NCBI RefSeq assembly: GCF_014595955.1
Contig: NZ_JABVCF010000006.1
Span: forward strand, 248,001-312,000
DNA length: 64,000 bases
Origin: Pseudaminobacter soli (ex Zhang et al. 2022)
GTDB lineage: Bacteria; Pseudomonadota; Alphaproteobacteria; Rhizobiales; Rhizobiaceae
Direction of reading: 5' to 3'
The notes under the pieces are model-generated. The model made no database searches. It was not told the origin of the DNA and worked only from the letters and a program-made list of their open reading frames with translations. Positions 36,674-41,642 of the stretch are shown here, piece after piece. Each line of letters begins with the position of its first letter. Within the stretch, counting starts at the first letter, position 1. Made by a program: the position numbers and the translations under genes.

Positions 36674-37767
36674 CAGGCCGCCCTCAGGTTCATGCGCCGC
36701 TCTACCCGGATAATGAGGAGGGCGATCAGGGCAAGCACCACGCCCGATGCCAGGAAAAGGCCGGCGGTTCCGAGCATAGTGCCCAGCGTCGTCACATAGA
36801 GAAAGCACAGCTCGAAGGTGAAGCCGAGATAGGCGATCCAGCGCAGTCCGCGGCTCTCGCGACCGGCCAGCAGCAGCGCCGCGATGATGGCCGCGAAGAC
36901 GATCACTGCGGCGAGGACGAGAGTGGCCGTCTCCTCCATGTGGTCGAACTGCAGCATGGCCGCCCCCGTCAGGAAGCCGATCAAGGCGTGCATGTCCAAC
37001 CGGCCGTCCAATCGCACGATCTGCTCCGTCCGTTTCGGATCCAGGACAGCAACTGCAAAAAGCAGCGCCGACACTCCGGCCAACACAAGCGAGACCGCCG
37101 TGACGTCGTAGTGGAAGGCTAGCACCACGGCATAGAGCACCAGCGACAGGGCAACGAGATGTCTTGCATAGGAACTGCCGGTCCACAGCGAGACCGCCCA
37201 CACCAGAGCGGCCACAATCGGATAGGCCCGCGACAGGTCGCCACCGCTCCACAAGTCGAAGCCTTTCGCAACCATCCAAAAGACGGCGATGCCGCCTGCG
37301 CCAATGGTCAGCGGGCCGGAGCGGAGCACCGCCGCCGCCAGCAGGGTTCCGCCGAACCAGGTGAGCAGCGCTGCCTCCTCGTCGCCCGACAGATGATACA
37401 TCTGCCCGATCAGCGCGATGGCACCGCCGAAAGTGGCGGCCGCGATCAGCCAGGCGCCTTCCGCCAGCGCGTCATGGCCGCGCAGCTTGAGCAAGGCCCC
37501 GCCGACATAACCGACGAAGATCAAACAGAAGAGCAGGACAACCCGGGTGAGGCGCGGGATCGCTTCCCAGTTCGATGCGACCACCAGCAGAACCGCCGCA
37601 CCGAGCAGCAGTGCCGCCATCATCATCAGAACGAAGCCAAACGAAAGCGAGCGCCGGTCCTGGGAGACGGCGTCGGCCAGCAGCGCGTCTGCCGTCGAAC
37701 GGTCGACAAGCCCGCGTGTAACCCACCGATCCAAGTCCTGTTTCAGTCTCTTCGTGTATGCCGCCAT
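36673..37767 (-). CDS. DUF2157 multi-spanning membrane protein
   Basis: 364 aa from ATG 37767-37765. A cytoplasmic helical start (KRLKQDLDRWVTRGLVDRST) holds the DUF2157 signature and is followed by about 10-11 membrane helices, with IGQMYHLSGDEEAALLTWFG between them. It forms a two-gene unit with the GDYXXLXY protein (1-base overlap). The family occurs widely in Proteobacteria without a known role. Confidence 0.85.
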   Translation of the reverse strand: MAAYTKRLKQDLDRWVTRGLVDRSTADALLADAVSQDRRSLSFGFVLMMMAALLLGAAVLLVVASNWEAIPRLTRVVLLFCLIFVGYVGGALLKLRGHDALAEGAWLIAAATFGGAIALIGQMYHLSGDEEAALLTWFGGTLLAAAVLRSGPLTIGAGGIAVFWMVAKGFDLWSGGDLSRAYPIVAALVWAVSLWTGSSYARHLVALSLVLYAVVLAFHYDVTAVSLVLAGVSALLFAVAVLDPKRTEQIVRLDGRLDMHALIGFLTGAAMLQFDHMEETATLVLAAVIVFAAIIAALLLAGRESRGLRWIAYLGFTFELCFLYVTTLGTMLGTAGLFLASGVVLALIALLIIRVERRMNLRAA

Positions 37768-37878
37768 CGCGCCTTGCCTTGCCCTCCGCGACATTAGGTC
37801 AAAACCCTAACTTCTTGACATCAGGCGACTTCCCCGAACTGCAGCATACGGGCCACAGGCTTTCAGGAATCGTTAATG

Positions 37879-37901
37879 TTGCATTGCACCATTTGCATTG
37901 C
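37879..37901. promoter_or_regulatory. Direct repeats TTGCATTGC upstream of the DUF1127/sRNA locus
   Basis: TTGCATTGC occurs at 37879-37887 and 37893-37901 (14-base period), about 90-110 bases before ATG 37989. The same TGCATTGC core forms the centre of the palindrome at 18934, again about 95 bases before a small gene. It is likely a regulator binding site (inference). Confidence 0.45.
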
Positions 37902-37988
37902 TGCTATGCGGCATCAGCCCTTTCAGATCACGGCGAACGCACATAGATACCGCCTCGACAACGAATTGAGAAACACCCGGGGCTGACA

Positions 37989-38129
37989 ATGAACCTGATC
38001 CGAAACTACCGCAACTGGCGCCGCTATCGCGAGACCGTCTCCGAGCTGAGCCGCCTCTCCAACCGCGAGCTTTCCGATCTGGGCATCACCCGCGCCGACA
38101 TCCGTTCGGTCGCCAGGAAGGCTATCTAA
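37989..38129 (+). CDS. DUF1127 protein, 46 aa (CcaF1-like)
   Basis: The product MNLIRNYRNWRRYRETVSEL onward contains the classic DUF1127 core (LSRLSNRELSDLGITRADI) and ends RSVARKAI. The gene is followed within 11 bases by a hairpin array with CTCCTCCC loops. In Rhodobacter, the DUF1127 protein CcaF1 is co-transcribed with CcsR (cuckoo-family) sRNAs and binds RNA; the arrangement here matches. TTGCATTGC repeats precede it. Confidence 0.9.
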   Translation: MNLIRNYRNWRRYRETVSELSRLSNRELSDLGITRADIRSVARKAI

Positions 38130-38139
38130 GGGCTTCGGT

Positions 38140-38246
38140 CGGGACCGACCTCCTCCCCGGTCCCGCCGGATCAGGCCAGTTTTCTCCTCCTCCCGAAAAC
38201 TGGCCGCTCCTAACGGCACCCGCCGGATCTCCTCCCCCGGCGGGTG
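38140..38246 (+). ncRNA. Cuckoo/CcsR-type sRNA locus, copy 1 (three hairpins with CTCCTCCC loops)
   Basis: Three perfect hairpins occur in tandem, each with a 10-base loop ending in CTCCTCCC. Hairpin 1 has stem 38140-38147/38158-38165 and loop ACCTCCTCCC. Hairpin 2 has stem 38174-38184/38195-38205 and loop TCCTCCTCCC. Hairpin 3 has stem 38217-38226/38237-38246 and loop ATCTCCTCCC. The loop is complementary to Shine-Dalgarno sequences. Stems differ in sequence while loops are conserved, which indicates selection on the loop. It follows the DUF1127 gene by 10 bases and is probably processed from the same transcript. Confidence 0.8.
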
Positions 38247-38259
38247 CTGTTTCCGAAAT

Positions 38260-38284
38260 GGAACTTCTGTGAAGTCCCGAAGTT
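38260..38284 (+). promoter_or_regulatory. Possible EcfG/RpoE2-type promoter between the sRNA arrays
   Basis: GGAAC (38260-38264) is followed after 18 bases by TT (38283-38284), which fits the rhizobial general-stress sigma consensus GGAAC-N18/19-TT. It could drive the second sRNA array, although about 110 bases separate it from the first stem. Chance matches to so short a motif are common. Confidence 0.3.
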
Positions 38285-38400
38285 TGAAGGCGCAGAAGCA
38301 AACCTCGGAAGCGGCTGACATCCGGACGTTTTGACGCATTGGTCAGCCGGTTCGAATATGTTGAAAGGCGCCTCGCACGCCACCATATGCGAGCAGAACA

Positions 38401-38508
38401 TCGCTGCACCCCTCCTCCTCCCAGGTGCAGCGACTACGGGCAGTATCACCTCCTCCCGATACTGCCCGGCCAAAGCGACACCCGCCGGATCTCCTCCCCC
38501 GGCGGGTG
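38401..38508 (+). ncRNA. Cuckoo/CcsR-type sRNA locus, copy 2 (three hairpins with CTCCTCCC loops)
   Basis: A second set of three hairpins. Hairpin 4 has stem 38401-38410/38424-38433 and loop CCTCCTCCTCCCA. Hairpin 5 has stem 38437-38447/38458-38468 and loop ACCTCCTCCC. Hairpin 6 has stem 38479-38488/38499-38508 and loop ATCTCCTCCC. Hairpin 6 is identical to hairpin 3 over 30 bases, whereas stems 4 and 5 differ from 1 and 2 but keep the pairing. This shows duplication followed by compensatory change. The 38130-38611 gap contains no further gene apart from these arrays. Confidence 0.8.
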
Positions 38509-38611
38509 TTGTACATTGAGGCCCCCTTTTCCGCACGGTTGTGTGTCTGGCGCATGGCGCCAAGCGGCCCTATGTCTGCGCGCGTTCACCGCGAAGACGT
38601 GGAGCCTCAAG

Positions 38612-39568
38612 ATGATCACGCGCGAGCTAGGCCAAACCGGCATTTCCATTGCCCCCCTTGTGCTGGGCGGCAATGTTTTCGGGTGGACGGCCGACAAGGA
38701 CACATCCTTCAAACTGCTGGATCGCTTCGTCGAGGCTGGCCTGAACGCGATCGACACCGCCGATGCCTATTCGCGCTGGGTGCCCGGCCACTCGGGCGGC
38801 GAATCGGAGAGCATCATCGGCGAGTGGCTGAAGTCGCGCGGCAATCGGGAGAAGGTAGTCGTGATCACAAAGGTCGGCTCGGATATGGGTCAGGGGAAGA
38901 AGGACCTGTCCGCGAAGTGGATCTTCGAAGCGGTGGAAGCGTCGCTCCGCCGGCTGCAGACCGACCACATCGACGTTTATCTCTCGCATTGGCACGACCC
39001 GGATACGCCATATGCGGAGACGCTCGGCGCCTATGACAAGCTTCTGAAGGCGGGCAAGGTGCGGGCGATCGGCGCGTCGAATCTCGACGCGGCCCAGCTT
39101 CGCGAGTCGCTAGAGGTCGCCCGCAAGGAGGGACTGCCCCGGTACGAGATCCTCCAGCCCGAATACAATCTCTACGACCGCAGCAGCTACGACGGGCCGC
39201 TGCGAGACCTCTGCATCGCCGAAGGGTTGGGCGTCATCACCTATTACAGCCTCGCGAGCGGCTTCTTGACCGGAAAGTACCGCAGCGAAGCCGATCTCGG
39301 CAAAAGCCCCCGCGGCCAAGGCGTCGCCGGCTATCTCGATTCGCGCGGCTTCGCGATTCTCCACGCGCTCGACGCGGTCGCGCTCAAGCATAGTAGCAAG
39401 CCGGCGGAGGTGGCGCTTGCCTGGGTCATTGCACAGGAAGGCGTGACCGCTCCGATCGCCAGCGCCACCTCGCTCGGGCAGATGGAAAGCCTGATCAACG
39501 CGGTCAGCCTGAAGCTCGATGCTGAAGATATTGCCATGCTCGACAAGGCGAGCGCACCCTCTTCATAG
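38612..39568 (+). CDS. Aldo/keto reductase
   Basis: 318 aa from ATG 38612 with SD GGAG. The AKR catalytic tetrad is complete: D48 (NAIDTADAY), Y53, K87 (VVITKVGSD) and H126 (YLSHWH). The NADP-binding region is in the C-terminal barrel (ITYYSLASGFLTGKYRSEAD; APIASATSLGQMESLINAV). It resembles the YajO/Tas-like AKRs; the substrate is not known. The upstream gap holds the sRNA arrays. Confidence 0.92.
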   Translation: MITRELGQTGISIAPLVLGGNVFGWTADKDTSFKLLDRFVEAGLNAIDTADAYSRWVPGHSGGESESIIGEWLKSRGNREKVVVITKVGSDMGQGKKDLSAKWIFEAVEASLRRLQTDHIDVYLSHWHDPDTPYAETLGAYDKLLKAGKVRAIGASNLDAAQLRESLEVARKEGLPRYEILQPEYNLYDRSSYDGPLRDLCIAEGLGVITYYSLASGFLTGKYRSEADLGKSPRGQGVAGYLDSRGFAILHALDAVALKHSSKPAEVALAWVIAQEGVTAPIASATSLGQMESLINAVSLKLDAEDIAMLDKASAPSS

Positions 39569-39577
39569 GCTTCCAAA

Positions 39578-40150
39578 TCAGCGTTCGCCCCACACGCCGC
39601 GGGTGCGCCAACGCGTCAGTGGCATGATGTCCGGCGCGCCTCCAGCGGGCTCGAACCAACTGTCCACCACCCATTTCTCGCCGGTCCTGTCGGCAACGAC
39701 GGCAGTGAAGTGCGGGTAGCGGCCGTCCGCGAAGAAACCGCGGGACGTTTTGCGCTCGACCGTGTGATGCTTGAGCAGACCGCGCGTCTCGAGCAGTTTG
39801 AGCAGGCTGGTGGTGTTGGTCGATTCGTCGACACAATCCATCTGACCGCGTTCATGGCTGCCGCCGAGATCGCCCTTGGGTCGGTCCTTCACCCCAATCG
39901 CCCGGGTCGCCTTGCGCTCATAATACTGCACGGCCCTGGAAATGGCGCGGCGCTCAGCCTTGGCCGAAGAGGCTCCGATGCGCATGATCGCTGCGATGCT
40001 TTTCAGGTCCGCCGAGCCGAATTCAAGCCGCGTCTTGAAGGTGCACGAGAATCCGTGACACACGGTCAGCGCCACCGCGTGACTCACGCTGACGGCTAGC
40101 GCCGACAACGCGACCAAGCCCGCGATGGAAAGCATTCTGCCCCTCGCCAT
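39578..40150 (-). CDS. Exported protein with possible Cys-His-Asp hydrolase site
   Basis: 190 aa from ATG 40150-40148 (GAGAGCC upstream; ATG 40159 is an alternative). Signal peptide: [20 protein letters not shown] region. The mature part has two early cysteines (LTVCHGFSC, maybe a disulfide). Its C-terminal half aligns a Cys ([16 protein letters not shown]), a His (RYPHFTAVV) and an Asp ([13 protein letters not shown]) in the order and spacing of a transglutaminase/papain-like triad. No named family is recognised. Divergent from trmFO. Confidence 0.6.
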
Positions 40151-40238
40151 GGCTCTCATGATGGTCGTGGCCGGCTCCGGTTGCAAGCCGCGCAGGGAGG
40201 GCGTTGCGTTCCATGGAAGCCAGGCCTATTTCCCGGAC

Positions 40239-41642
40239 ATGAAACCCATTCACATCATCGGCGGCGGCCTTGCCGGTTCGGAGGCCGCCTGGCAGGCAGC
40301 CCAGGCCGGGGTTCCGGTCGTCCTTCACGAGATGCGCCCGGTGCGCGGCACCGATGCGCACAAGACGGACGGGCTGGCCGAACTGGTCTGCTCGAACTCC
40401 TTCCGCTCGGACGATGCCGAGACCAACGCGGTCGGGCTGCTGCATGCCGAGATGCGGCTCGCCAACTCCCTCATCATGGCCTGCGGAGATGCCAACCAGG
40501 TGCCGGCGGGCGGAGCGCTGGCTGTGGATCGCGACGGCTTTTCCTCAGCGGTGACGGCCAAGCTCGAAGCTCACCCGCTGATCACGATCGTGCGCGAGGA
40601 AGTTTCCGGCCTTCCGCCGGAGGAGTGGGACCAGGCGGTCATCGCGACCGGGCCTCTGACCGCGCCGTCGCTCGCCCAGGCCATCGCCGACCGCACCGGA
40701 GCCGATTCGCTCGCCTTCTTCGATGCGATTGCCCCGATCATCCATTTCGACACGATCGACATGAACGTCTGCTGGTTCCAGTCGCGCTACGACAAGGTGG
40801 GCCCGGGCGGAACGGGCAAGGACTACATCAATTGCCCCATGGACCGTCACCAATACGAGGCCTTCGTCCAAGCGCTGGTCGACGGCCAGAAGACCGAGTT
40901 CAAGGAGTGGGAGGGCACCCCCTACTTCGACGGTTGCCTGCCGATCGAGGTGATGGCCGAGCGTGGCCCGGAGACGCTGCGGCACGGTCCGATGAAGCCG
41001 ATGGGCCTCACCAACGCGCATAACCCCACCGTCAAGCCGTATGCGGTCGTCCAACTGCGCCAGGACAACGCGCTGGGCACGCTCTACAACATGGTCGGCT
41101 TCCAGACGAAGCTGAAGCACGGCGGGCAGGTGCGCATCTTCCGCACGATCCCGGGCCTGGAGAATGCGGAGTTCGCTCGCCTCGGCGGCCTGCACCGCAA
41201 CACCTACATCAACTCGCCGGTGCTCCTCGATCCGACGCTGCAGTTGAAGGGCCGTCCCGGCCTGCGCTTCGCCGGTCAGATCACCGGCTGCGAAGGCTAT
41301 GTGGAGAGCGCGGCCGTGGGACTGCTCGCCGGCCGCTTTGCGGCCGCTGAGCGGCTCGGCCAGGATTTGGCCGCGCCTCCGCCAAGCACGGGCTTCGGTG
41401 CTCTGCTCGGCCACATCACCGGCGGCCACATCGTTTCGGACGACGAGCCCGGAAAGCGCTCGTTCCAGCCGATGAACGTCAATTTTGGGCTTTTCCCGCC
41501 TATCGAAGCGCCTAGGACGGAAGGTAAGCGCCTGCGCGGCAAGGAAAAGACTGTCGCCAAGAAGAGGGCGCTCACCGCTCGCGCGCTGGCCGACTGCCGG
41601 GCGTGGCTGGGGCTGCCGGAGGTGGCGGAGGCTGCGGAGTAG
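40239..41642 (+). CDS. trmFO: Methylene-THF--tRNA-(uracil-54-C5) methyltransferase
   Basis: 467 aa from ATG 40239 ([20 protein letters not shown]). FAD-binding [50 protein letters not shown] and [20 protein letters not shown] are all TrmFO signatures. It forms T54 in tRNA using methylene-THF and FADH2. Monocistronic here; it converges with the squalene/phytoene-synthase-like gene, 10 bases apart. Confidence 0.95.

Follow-up and report, generated by a model that had tools for sequence, protein, structure and literature searches.

Two tandem units matching the αr14 small RNA family follow a DUF1127 gene with a candidate LsrB/VtlR-type operator in Pseudaminobacter soli

What are the two arrays of hairpins that directly follow a short DUF1127 gene in Pseudaminobacter soli, and might gene and arrays be controlled together? 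DUF1127 has been called an intriguing puzzle, being RNA-binding in Rhodobacter and protein-binding in Agrobacterium, and opinions differ on whether RNA or protein is its target: CcaF1 of Rhodobacter acts on RNA, the short DUF1127 proteins of Agrobacterium work via PhoR, and Salmonella YjiS does not bind RNA. We analyzed computationally a 64,000-nt stretch of the P. soli genome (hereafter the window), and the features of the locus are collected in Table 1. The genome of the window holds seven DUF1127 genes, two of which are directly adjoined by αr14, the RNA family that both arrays match.

Table 1 Features of the DUF1127-αr14 locus (positions are those of the window)
Feature	Coordinates	Strand	Basis
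Composite LsrB/VtlR-type (LysR) operator candidate, TGCA-N6-GCAT-N3-TG-N3-T	37885..37907	+	Exact sequence match
Tentative sigma-70 core promoter, CTTTCAG-N17-TAGATA	37920..37949	+	By eye, analogy with NfeR1 CTTAGAC-N17-CTATAT
DUF1127 gene, small arginine-rich protein, 46 aa	37989..38129	+	Pfam PF06568, 60.3 bits, E=1.4e-16
αr14 unit 1, three aSD hairpins, starts one base after DUF1127 stop codon	38130..38252	+	RF02344, 91.4 bits, E=2.5e-15, model 1-123
Hairpin 1 of unit 1, CCUCCUCCC loop	38137..38167	+	Folding
Hairpin 2 of unit 1, CCUCCUCCC loop	38174..38205	+	Folding
Hairpin 3 of unit 1, UCUCCUCCC loop, 30-base core common to hairpin 6	38212..38251	+	Folding
RpoH-like promoter candidate, TTGAAA-N16-CCATAT, separated from unit 2 by 7 bases	38361..38388	+	Pattern match
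αr14 unit 2, three aSD hairpins	38396..38514	+	RF02344, 93.9 bits, E=6.9e-16, model 1-123
Hairpin 1 of unit 2, CCUCCUCCC loop	38401..38433	+	Folding
Hairpin 2 of unit 2, CCUCCUCCC loop	38437..38468	+	Folding
Hairpin 3 of unit 2, UCUCCUCCC loop, weak U tail behind	38476..38511	+	Folding

The preliminary description of this locus had noted a DUF1127 gene followed by two sets of three hairpins with anti-Shine-Dalgarno (aSD) loops, an arrangement confirmed by the Pfam match of the gene and by six CTCCTCCC motifs (38150, 38187, 38229, 38415, 38450 and 38491), each enclosed in a stem. Two further motifs occur elsewhere in the window (16155 and 29288, the latter also passing a loose six-pair stem test), giving a total of 8 against a shuffle mean of 3.67 (8 reached in 1 of 100 shuffles); this number by itself is not very unusual, and what is unusual is the clustering of the motifs in paired stems. 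Folding of 38127-38520 yielded -192.6 kcal/mol (z = -10.2; none of 100 dinucleotide shuffles as good), and when the hairpins were folded singly, five of the six beat all 200 shuffles. Hairpin 1 of unit 1, matched by 5 of 200 shuffles, is the weakest and contains a one-base bulge; the earlier wording of six perfect hairpins therefore goes slightly too far, although six hairpins are indeed present. The third hairpins of the two units share an identical 30-base core, as had been described, and the next pair outward shows a compensatory G-C to A-U difference between units. The loop motif is predicted to be unpaired in all three hairpins of each unit, with the full CCUCCUCCC in loops 1, 2, 4 and 5 and UCUCCUCCC, differing in its first base, in loops 3 and 6. 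A small conserved hairpin between the units (CTCGCA...TGCGAG), picked out by eye, is at most tentative, another fold having the lowest energy (z=-1.67).

On the 3′ side, the arrays are followed by an aldo/keto reductase gene (38612-39568), whose place is taken in two genomes of the genus (G002 and G003) by a stretch similar to the beginning of the GidA/TrmFO-type gene that the window has at 40125-41642; the reductase was therefore gained or lost within the genus.

Both units match the Rfam ar14 model (RF02344) over its full length and above its gathering cut-off of 58.8 bits, and six αr14 hits occur in the genome of the window. By this assignment, the arrays are two tandem units of a known sRNA family, αr14 (the NfeR1 family). 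Its founder, NfeR1, is described with three hairpins, CCUCCUCCC in each and highly differing stems (PMC10746234), and S. meliloti carries six copies of it (PMC7143759). A proposal of 2011 envisaged a single group whose members vary between two, three and four hairpins (PMC3927594), and the pairing of DUF1127 with cuckoo RNAs has already been published as the “CIN1 locus” (PMC10253847). The present locus is of this kind, with CcsR-like aSD RNAs accompanying a short DUF1127 gene, and the preliminary description, which had pointed to the cuckoo/CcsR family, was right about the group and the link to DUF1127; the exact family is αr14/NfeR1 (RF02344). Because each unit has three hairpins instead of the two per RNA of the Rhodobacter form, we did not file the units as CcsR itself. 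Neither of the traits that had been singled out as departures is one, since three hairpins per unit are the norm in αr14 and tandem units are frequent among relatives. A generic repeat or terminator artefact was ruled out by the ar14 scores and by covariation.

This covariation was assessed on αr14 units from the loci collected up to that step, of which 168 were distinct and 77 non-redundant, 60 of the latter being chosen for a structure alignment. RNAalifold on the MAFFT alignment recovered 23 pairs, all of them belonging to hairpin 2 or 3, and 21 of these show at least one compensatory change. Hairpin 1 was unpaired in this consensus, probably through misalignment, and we therefore applied to all three hairpins of the 77 units an arm-swap test, in which each unit's own left and right arms were compared with arms exchanged between units at a stem score of 7 or more. 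Own arms reached this score in 55 of 77 units for hairpin 1 (vs 12% of swaps) and in 71 of 77 for hairpin 2 (vs 20% of swaps); for hairpin 3, whose stem sequence is more conserved, the contrast was smaller (76 of 77 vs 65% of swaps). The stems are maintained through compensatory change. The earlier claim that they diverge yet keep pairing thus stands, and the covariation check proposed along with it found support by both methods. A loop that stays constant while the stems around it vary is expected for pairing in trans.

Beyond the window, αr14 matched at E<=0.001 in 146 of 151 sampled genomes of the family (137 over the cut-off), and DUF1127 was present in 146 of the 151; at the same E-value threshold for αr14, 15 of the 289 genomes of the class sample matched, and the cut-off was passed solely by the genome of the window. 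Both αr14 scans used the stricter filter settings of Infernal, at the cost of weak matches. The class sample does not support a spread of αr14 over the whole class. Tandem αr14 units behind DUF1127 were present in all four genus genomes examined (three units in G001), and αr14 units are adjacent in 60 of 114 αr14 clusters, which rules out an arrangement specific to the window. Relatives of the DUF1127 gene were examined at 80 named loci, the best hits to the window's DUF1127 in a contig scan and mostly from Mesorhizobium: in 72 a CTCCTCCC hairpin lies on the same strand no more than 700 nt downstream (46 with four or more such loops), and none has one within 700 nt on the opposite strand, a few loci ending sooner. 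One of the remaining loci (L130) has a hairpin upstream only and seven have none by the CTCCTCCC pattern; by Rfam, two of these seven carry ar14 downstream (L093, and L123 at ~1 kb), and the other five do not. Rfam on 20 of the 80 loci placed ar14 over the cut-off in 11, and four loci with one hairpin each (L080, L121, L125 and L126) gave no ar14 hit over it. When αr14 loci from other family genomes were picked by αr14 score (L030-L059), a same-strand DUF1127 was found within the available flanks in 22 of 30. With D for DUF1127 and a for an αr14 unit, the order within the 114 clusters was DDaa in 36, Da in 25, a in 18, aaDD in 8, DDaaa in 8, Daa in 6 and otherwise in 13; clusters and loci were chosen by similarity and the same genome may occur twice, so that these counts are not unbiased frequencies.

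An αr14-type array also lies 33-72 nt (stop codon to first loop) downstream of a phasin-like gene in all four genus genomes examined. In the genome of the window (array C23:296415-296528) this gene matches Pfam Phasin_2 (E=1.6e-16), Pfam having been run on that fragment only. Phasin-like gene and array constitute a second 3′-UTR-linked aSD array.

What might control the locus is suggested by the composite operator ahead of DUF1127, the one match in the window. For LsrB, a consensus GCAT-N3-TG-N3-T has been proposed and matched at abcR1 (PMC8844928), and the nfeR1 site reads TGCA-N6-GCAT (PMC10746234); the composite comprises both published halves overlapping, with the joint spacing taken from the window locus and its congeners. 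Exact matches number three in the 6.1 Mb genome. The second of them (C1:445943-445965) is intergenic in a divergent gene pair, presumably amino-acid binding-protein-like and cystathionine-lyase-like genes as named from sequence, and the third falls within an ORF. If one mismatch is allowed, the composite matches 71 times genome-wide against 25 for the reversed pattern, and near matches are therefore not specific; the second DUF1127-αr14 pair of this genome carries it with one mismatch. At 80 homologous operon starts, the composite was exact in 55 and had at most one mismatch in 65, at -104 to -141, and at least two in 15. Among the controls at the one-mismatch level, the reversed pattern matched at none of the 80 starts, the opposite strand at 1 and the stretch behind the first DUF1127 at 5. 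Because the spacing was read from the window locus and the starts, mostly from Mesorhizobium, related by descent and possibly including the same genome twice, are not independent, these counts express conservation and not independent hits.

The VtlR motif CAATGCAGCCATGCA (PMC12595884) was found within 3 mismatches at 66 of 78 DUF1127-first loci (vs ~1.3% of shuffles) and at 10 of 36 αr14-first loci (vs ~1.5% of shuffles), in 8 of these 10 at 48-55 nt before the unit. LsrB binds and activates the NfeR1 promoter (PMC10746234), and VtlR activates short DUF1127 genes of Brucella and the Agrobacterium ortholog atu1667 (PMC12595884, PMC7486931), a small gene whose authors left protein versus RNA action undecided (PMC7486931). 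Judged by its sequence, the DUF1127-αr14 locus has a putative operator of this LsrB/VtlR type. One solo αr14 of the genome (contig C27) has GCAT-N3-TG-N3-T 55 nt upstream, and those on contigs C23 and C30 have neither operator form within 260 nt upstream. The AbcR RNA (ar15; C3:133753-133867) lies directly behind a LysR gene, which is likely the LsrB/VtlR ortholog; in S. meliloti, lsrB adjoins an AbcR sRNA (PMC8844928). AbcR as a carrier of the exact composite was rejected, being absent among the three exact genome matches.

By analogy with NfeR1, whose own sigma-70 promoter (CTTAGAC-N17-CTATAT) sits immediately before the RNA (PMC10746234), a tentative core promoter can be drawn ahead of DUF1127, relative to which the operator would fall at roughly -71 to -49. 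A simple consensus scan of 37750-38620 found no sigma-70 promoter and no terminator, and TTGACG-N17-GAATAT at 38331 was rejected as a sigma-70 promoter, since the scan did not pick up so weak a match. Past the end of the DUF1127 coding sequence, no NfeR1-type promoter was found by a scan that a divergent one might escape. The distance from the last DUF1127 codon to the start of the first loop is 24-32 nt in most Mesorhizobium loci, so that the gap between gene and RNA offers no space for a promoter; one ahead of unit 1 may lie inside the DUF1127 gene. Hairpin 3 of αr14 typically forms a Rho-independent terminator, and in this genome the third hairpins of both units have strong stems and weak U tails. 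The RpoH-like pattern before unit 2 matches once in the window against 0.01 expected; for comparison, the S. meliloti RpoH1 promoter reads CTTGAA-N16-CCTATAT (PMC8844928). The candidate is the same in G002 and G003, reads CCACAT in G001 and is found in none of the other 80 of 84 downstream stretches. That it drives unit 2 is suggestive only.

The pattern GGGAGGAG-N4-9-ATG occurs at 61 sites in the genome (60 distinct), as compared to 7 for the reversed pattern. Behind these sites stand six PF01547 binding-protein genes against 0.44 expected (p=4e-6, from 43 such genes and an assumed 5,900 genes in the genome); a control SD pattern had one PF01547 link among 100 listed of its 133 sites (0.73 expected), and the two patterns compared directly for PF01547 gave p=0.012. 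The 30 fetched GGGAGGAG loci contain 22 ORFs that are at least 200 aa long, and 9 of these encode periplasmic binding proteins of several Pfam families, compared to 0 of 6 for the control pattern (p=0.07). One of the 60 sites is antisense to AbcR. Genes with a perfect SD match thus appear enriched in ABC-transporter binding proteins, in line with the reported NfeR1 targets, two binding proteins (PMC8844928) and ntrB (PMC10746234). General ribosome titration, suggested at the outset, has no specific support, and the target-site enrichment favors pairing with transporter mRNAs.

We think it somewhat probable that the locus is an LsrB-driven operon encoding a DUF1127 protein and two NfeR1-like sRNAs that repress transporter mRNAs, a reading of which we infer every step (LsrB binding, co-transcription, processing, RpoH use and repression). 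In such a stress- or nutrient-responsive operon of a Mesorhizobium-like bacterium, a LysR regulator of the LsrB/VtlR type would bind the operator candidate and switch on the promoter, and one RNA would carry DUF1127 plus two αr14 (NfeR1/cuckoo) units. RNase E would cut the units from the 3′ part of the DUF1127 mRNA, perhaps with the help of the DUF1127 protein as for CcaF1/CcsR, and unit 2 may also have its own start at the RpoH-like promoter. The three aSD loops of the mature sRNA would pair with Shine-Dalgarno regions, mainly in mRNAs of ABC-transporter periplasmic binding proteins, and this pairing would block translation.

The two units could instead be separate sRNA genes with promoters of their own (RpoH-like for unit 2, inside DUF1127 for unit 1), DUF1127 being a mere neighbor under similar control. 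NfeR1 does have a sigma-70 promoter of its own, no DUF1127 is nearby in 18 of the 114 αr14 clusters and αr14 comes first in 18 others, the VtlR-type motif precedes some of the αr14-first loci, mostly by 48-55 nt, the RpoH-like site lies just before unit 2, and AbcR1 and AbcR2 of S. meliloti are divided between LsrB and RpoH1 (PMC8844928). We nevertheless consider separate genes fairly unlikely, since the stop-to-hairpin distance leaves no space directly upstream of unit 1, the operator precedes DUF1127 and not the RNA, the consensus scan gave no sigma-70 match, and the RpoH-like site occurs in 3 of 84 downstream stretches, all from this genus.

Action of the arrays in cis, by stabilizing or processing the 3′ ends of DUF1127 mRNA, or as general SD sponges with no specific targets, is improbable in view of the constant loop sequence with variable stems, the repression of named mRNAs by NfeR1 and the enrichment of binding-protein targets, even though the arrays directly follow DUF1127 and a similar one follows the phasin-like gene. 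Nor do the arrays look like silent duplicates, in one unit or both: the stems are intact in the two units, the third-hairpin cores are identical and tandem units recur throughout the genus genomes examined, which leaves this reading very improbable despite the weak U tails and the northern blots of S. meliloti, where only one αr14 copy out of six gave a dependable signal (PMC7143759).

Compared with described systems, the locus shares with NfeR1/Smr14C2/SmelC397 of S. meliloti (αr14) the three aSD-loop hairpins, the ~120 nt unit and the variable stems, and with NfeR1/αr14 generally the several copies per genome, the LsrB-type operator and the ABC-transporter targets. It differs from NfeR1 in having tandem units directly behind DUF1127 (a comparison that covers nfeR1 without its flanking genes), in an operator placed before DUF1127 and not directly before the RNA, and in weak terminator tails. 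In ccaF1-CcsR1-4 of Rhodobacter sphaeroides (CIN1 locus, cuckoo RNAs), DUF1127 is likewise followed by several same-strand aSD-loop sRNAs, which are described as sharing its transcript and being matured by RNase E together with the DUF1127 protein; that locus has an RpoHI/RpoHII promoter and four CcsR copies (PMC10253847), whereas here an RpoH-like site stands before unit 2 and there are two copies of three hairpins each. CcaF1 has 71 aa and the DUF1127 protein of the window 46 aa. The Rhodobacter RNA RS0680a, which we take to be a CcsR RNA, serves as a further comparison. It has two hairpins (PMC3927594), against three here. The VtlR/LsrB-activated DUF1127 genes (Agrobacterium atu1667, Brucella) have in common with the present one a short DUF1127-type gene and an upstream LysR-type operator, and the accessible portions of their descriptions do not mention αr14 behind the gene. 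To our knowledge, AbcR1 and AbcR2 (ar15), which are of a different RNA family, have no link to DUF1127. They are similar in being tandem S. meliloti sRNAs that repress ABC transporters, one LsrB-driven and the other RpoH1-driven (PMC8844928).

The RNA family and the type of locus are thus known already, and the window holds a well-conserved member. New, as a lead that can be tested, is the LsrB/VtlR-type operator apparently common to the DUF1127-αr14-αr14 group. We found no literature joining the LsrB/VtlR-DUF1127 and LsrB-NfeR1 threads, which is weak evidence of novelty because key papers lay outside the literature covered; the main text of a Mesorhizobium huakuii sRNA paper, in its accessible part, mentions neither ar14 nor DUF1127. 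More tentatively, and with considerable doubt, the activation of DUF1127 genes by LsrB/VtlR and that of NfeR1 by LsrB might be facets of one module, in which a redox-sensing LysR regulator would drive an operon of DUF1127 and its own αr14 RNAs, matured with the protein's help, and the second RNA copy would have gained an RpoH promoter in this genus, so that these closely related RNAs would respond to two stress signals in the manner of AbcR1/AbcR2. DUF1127 and αr14 under one operator would open the RNA-versus-protein question about DUF1127 to direct testing in rhizobia, and a common operator could help explain the many gene changes in mutants of the LsrB/VtlR-type regulator.
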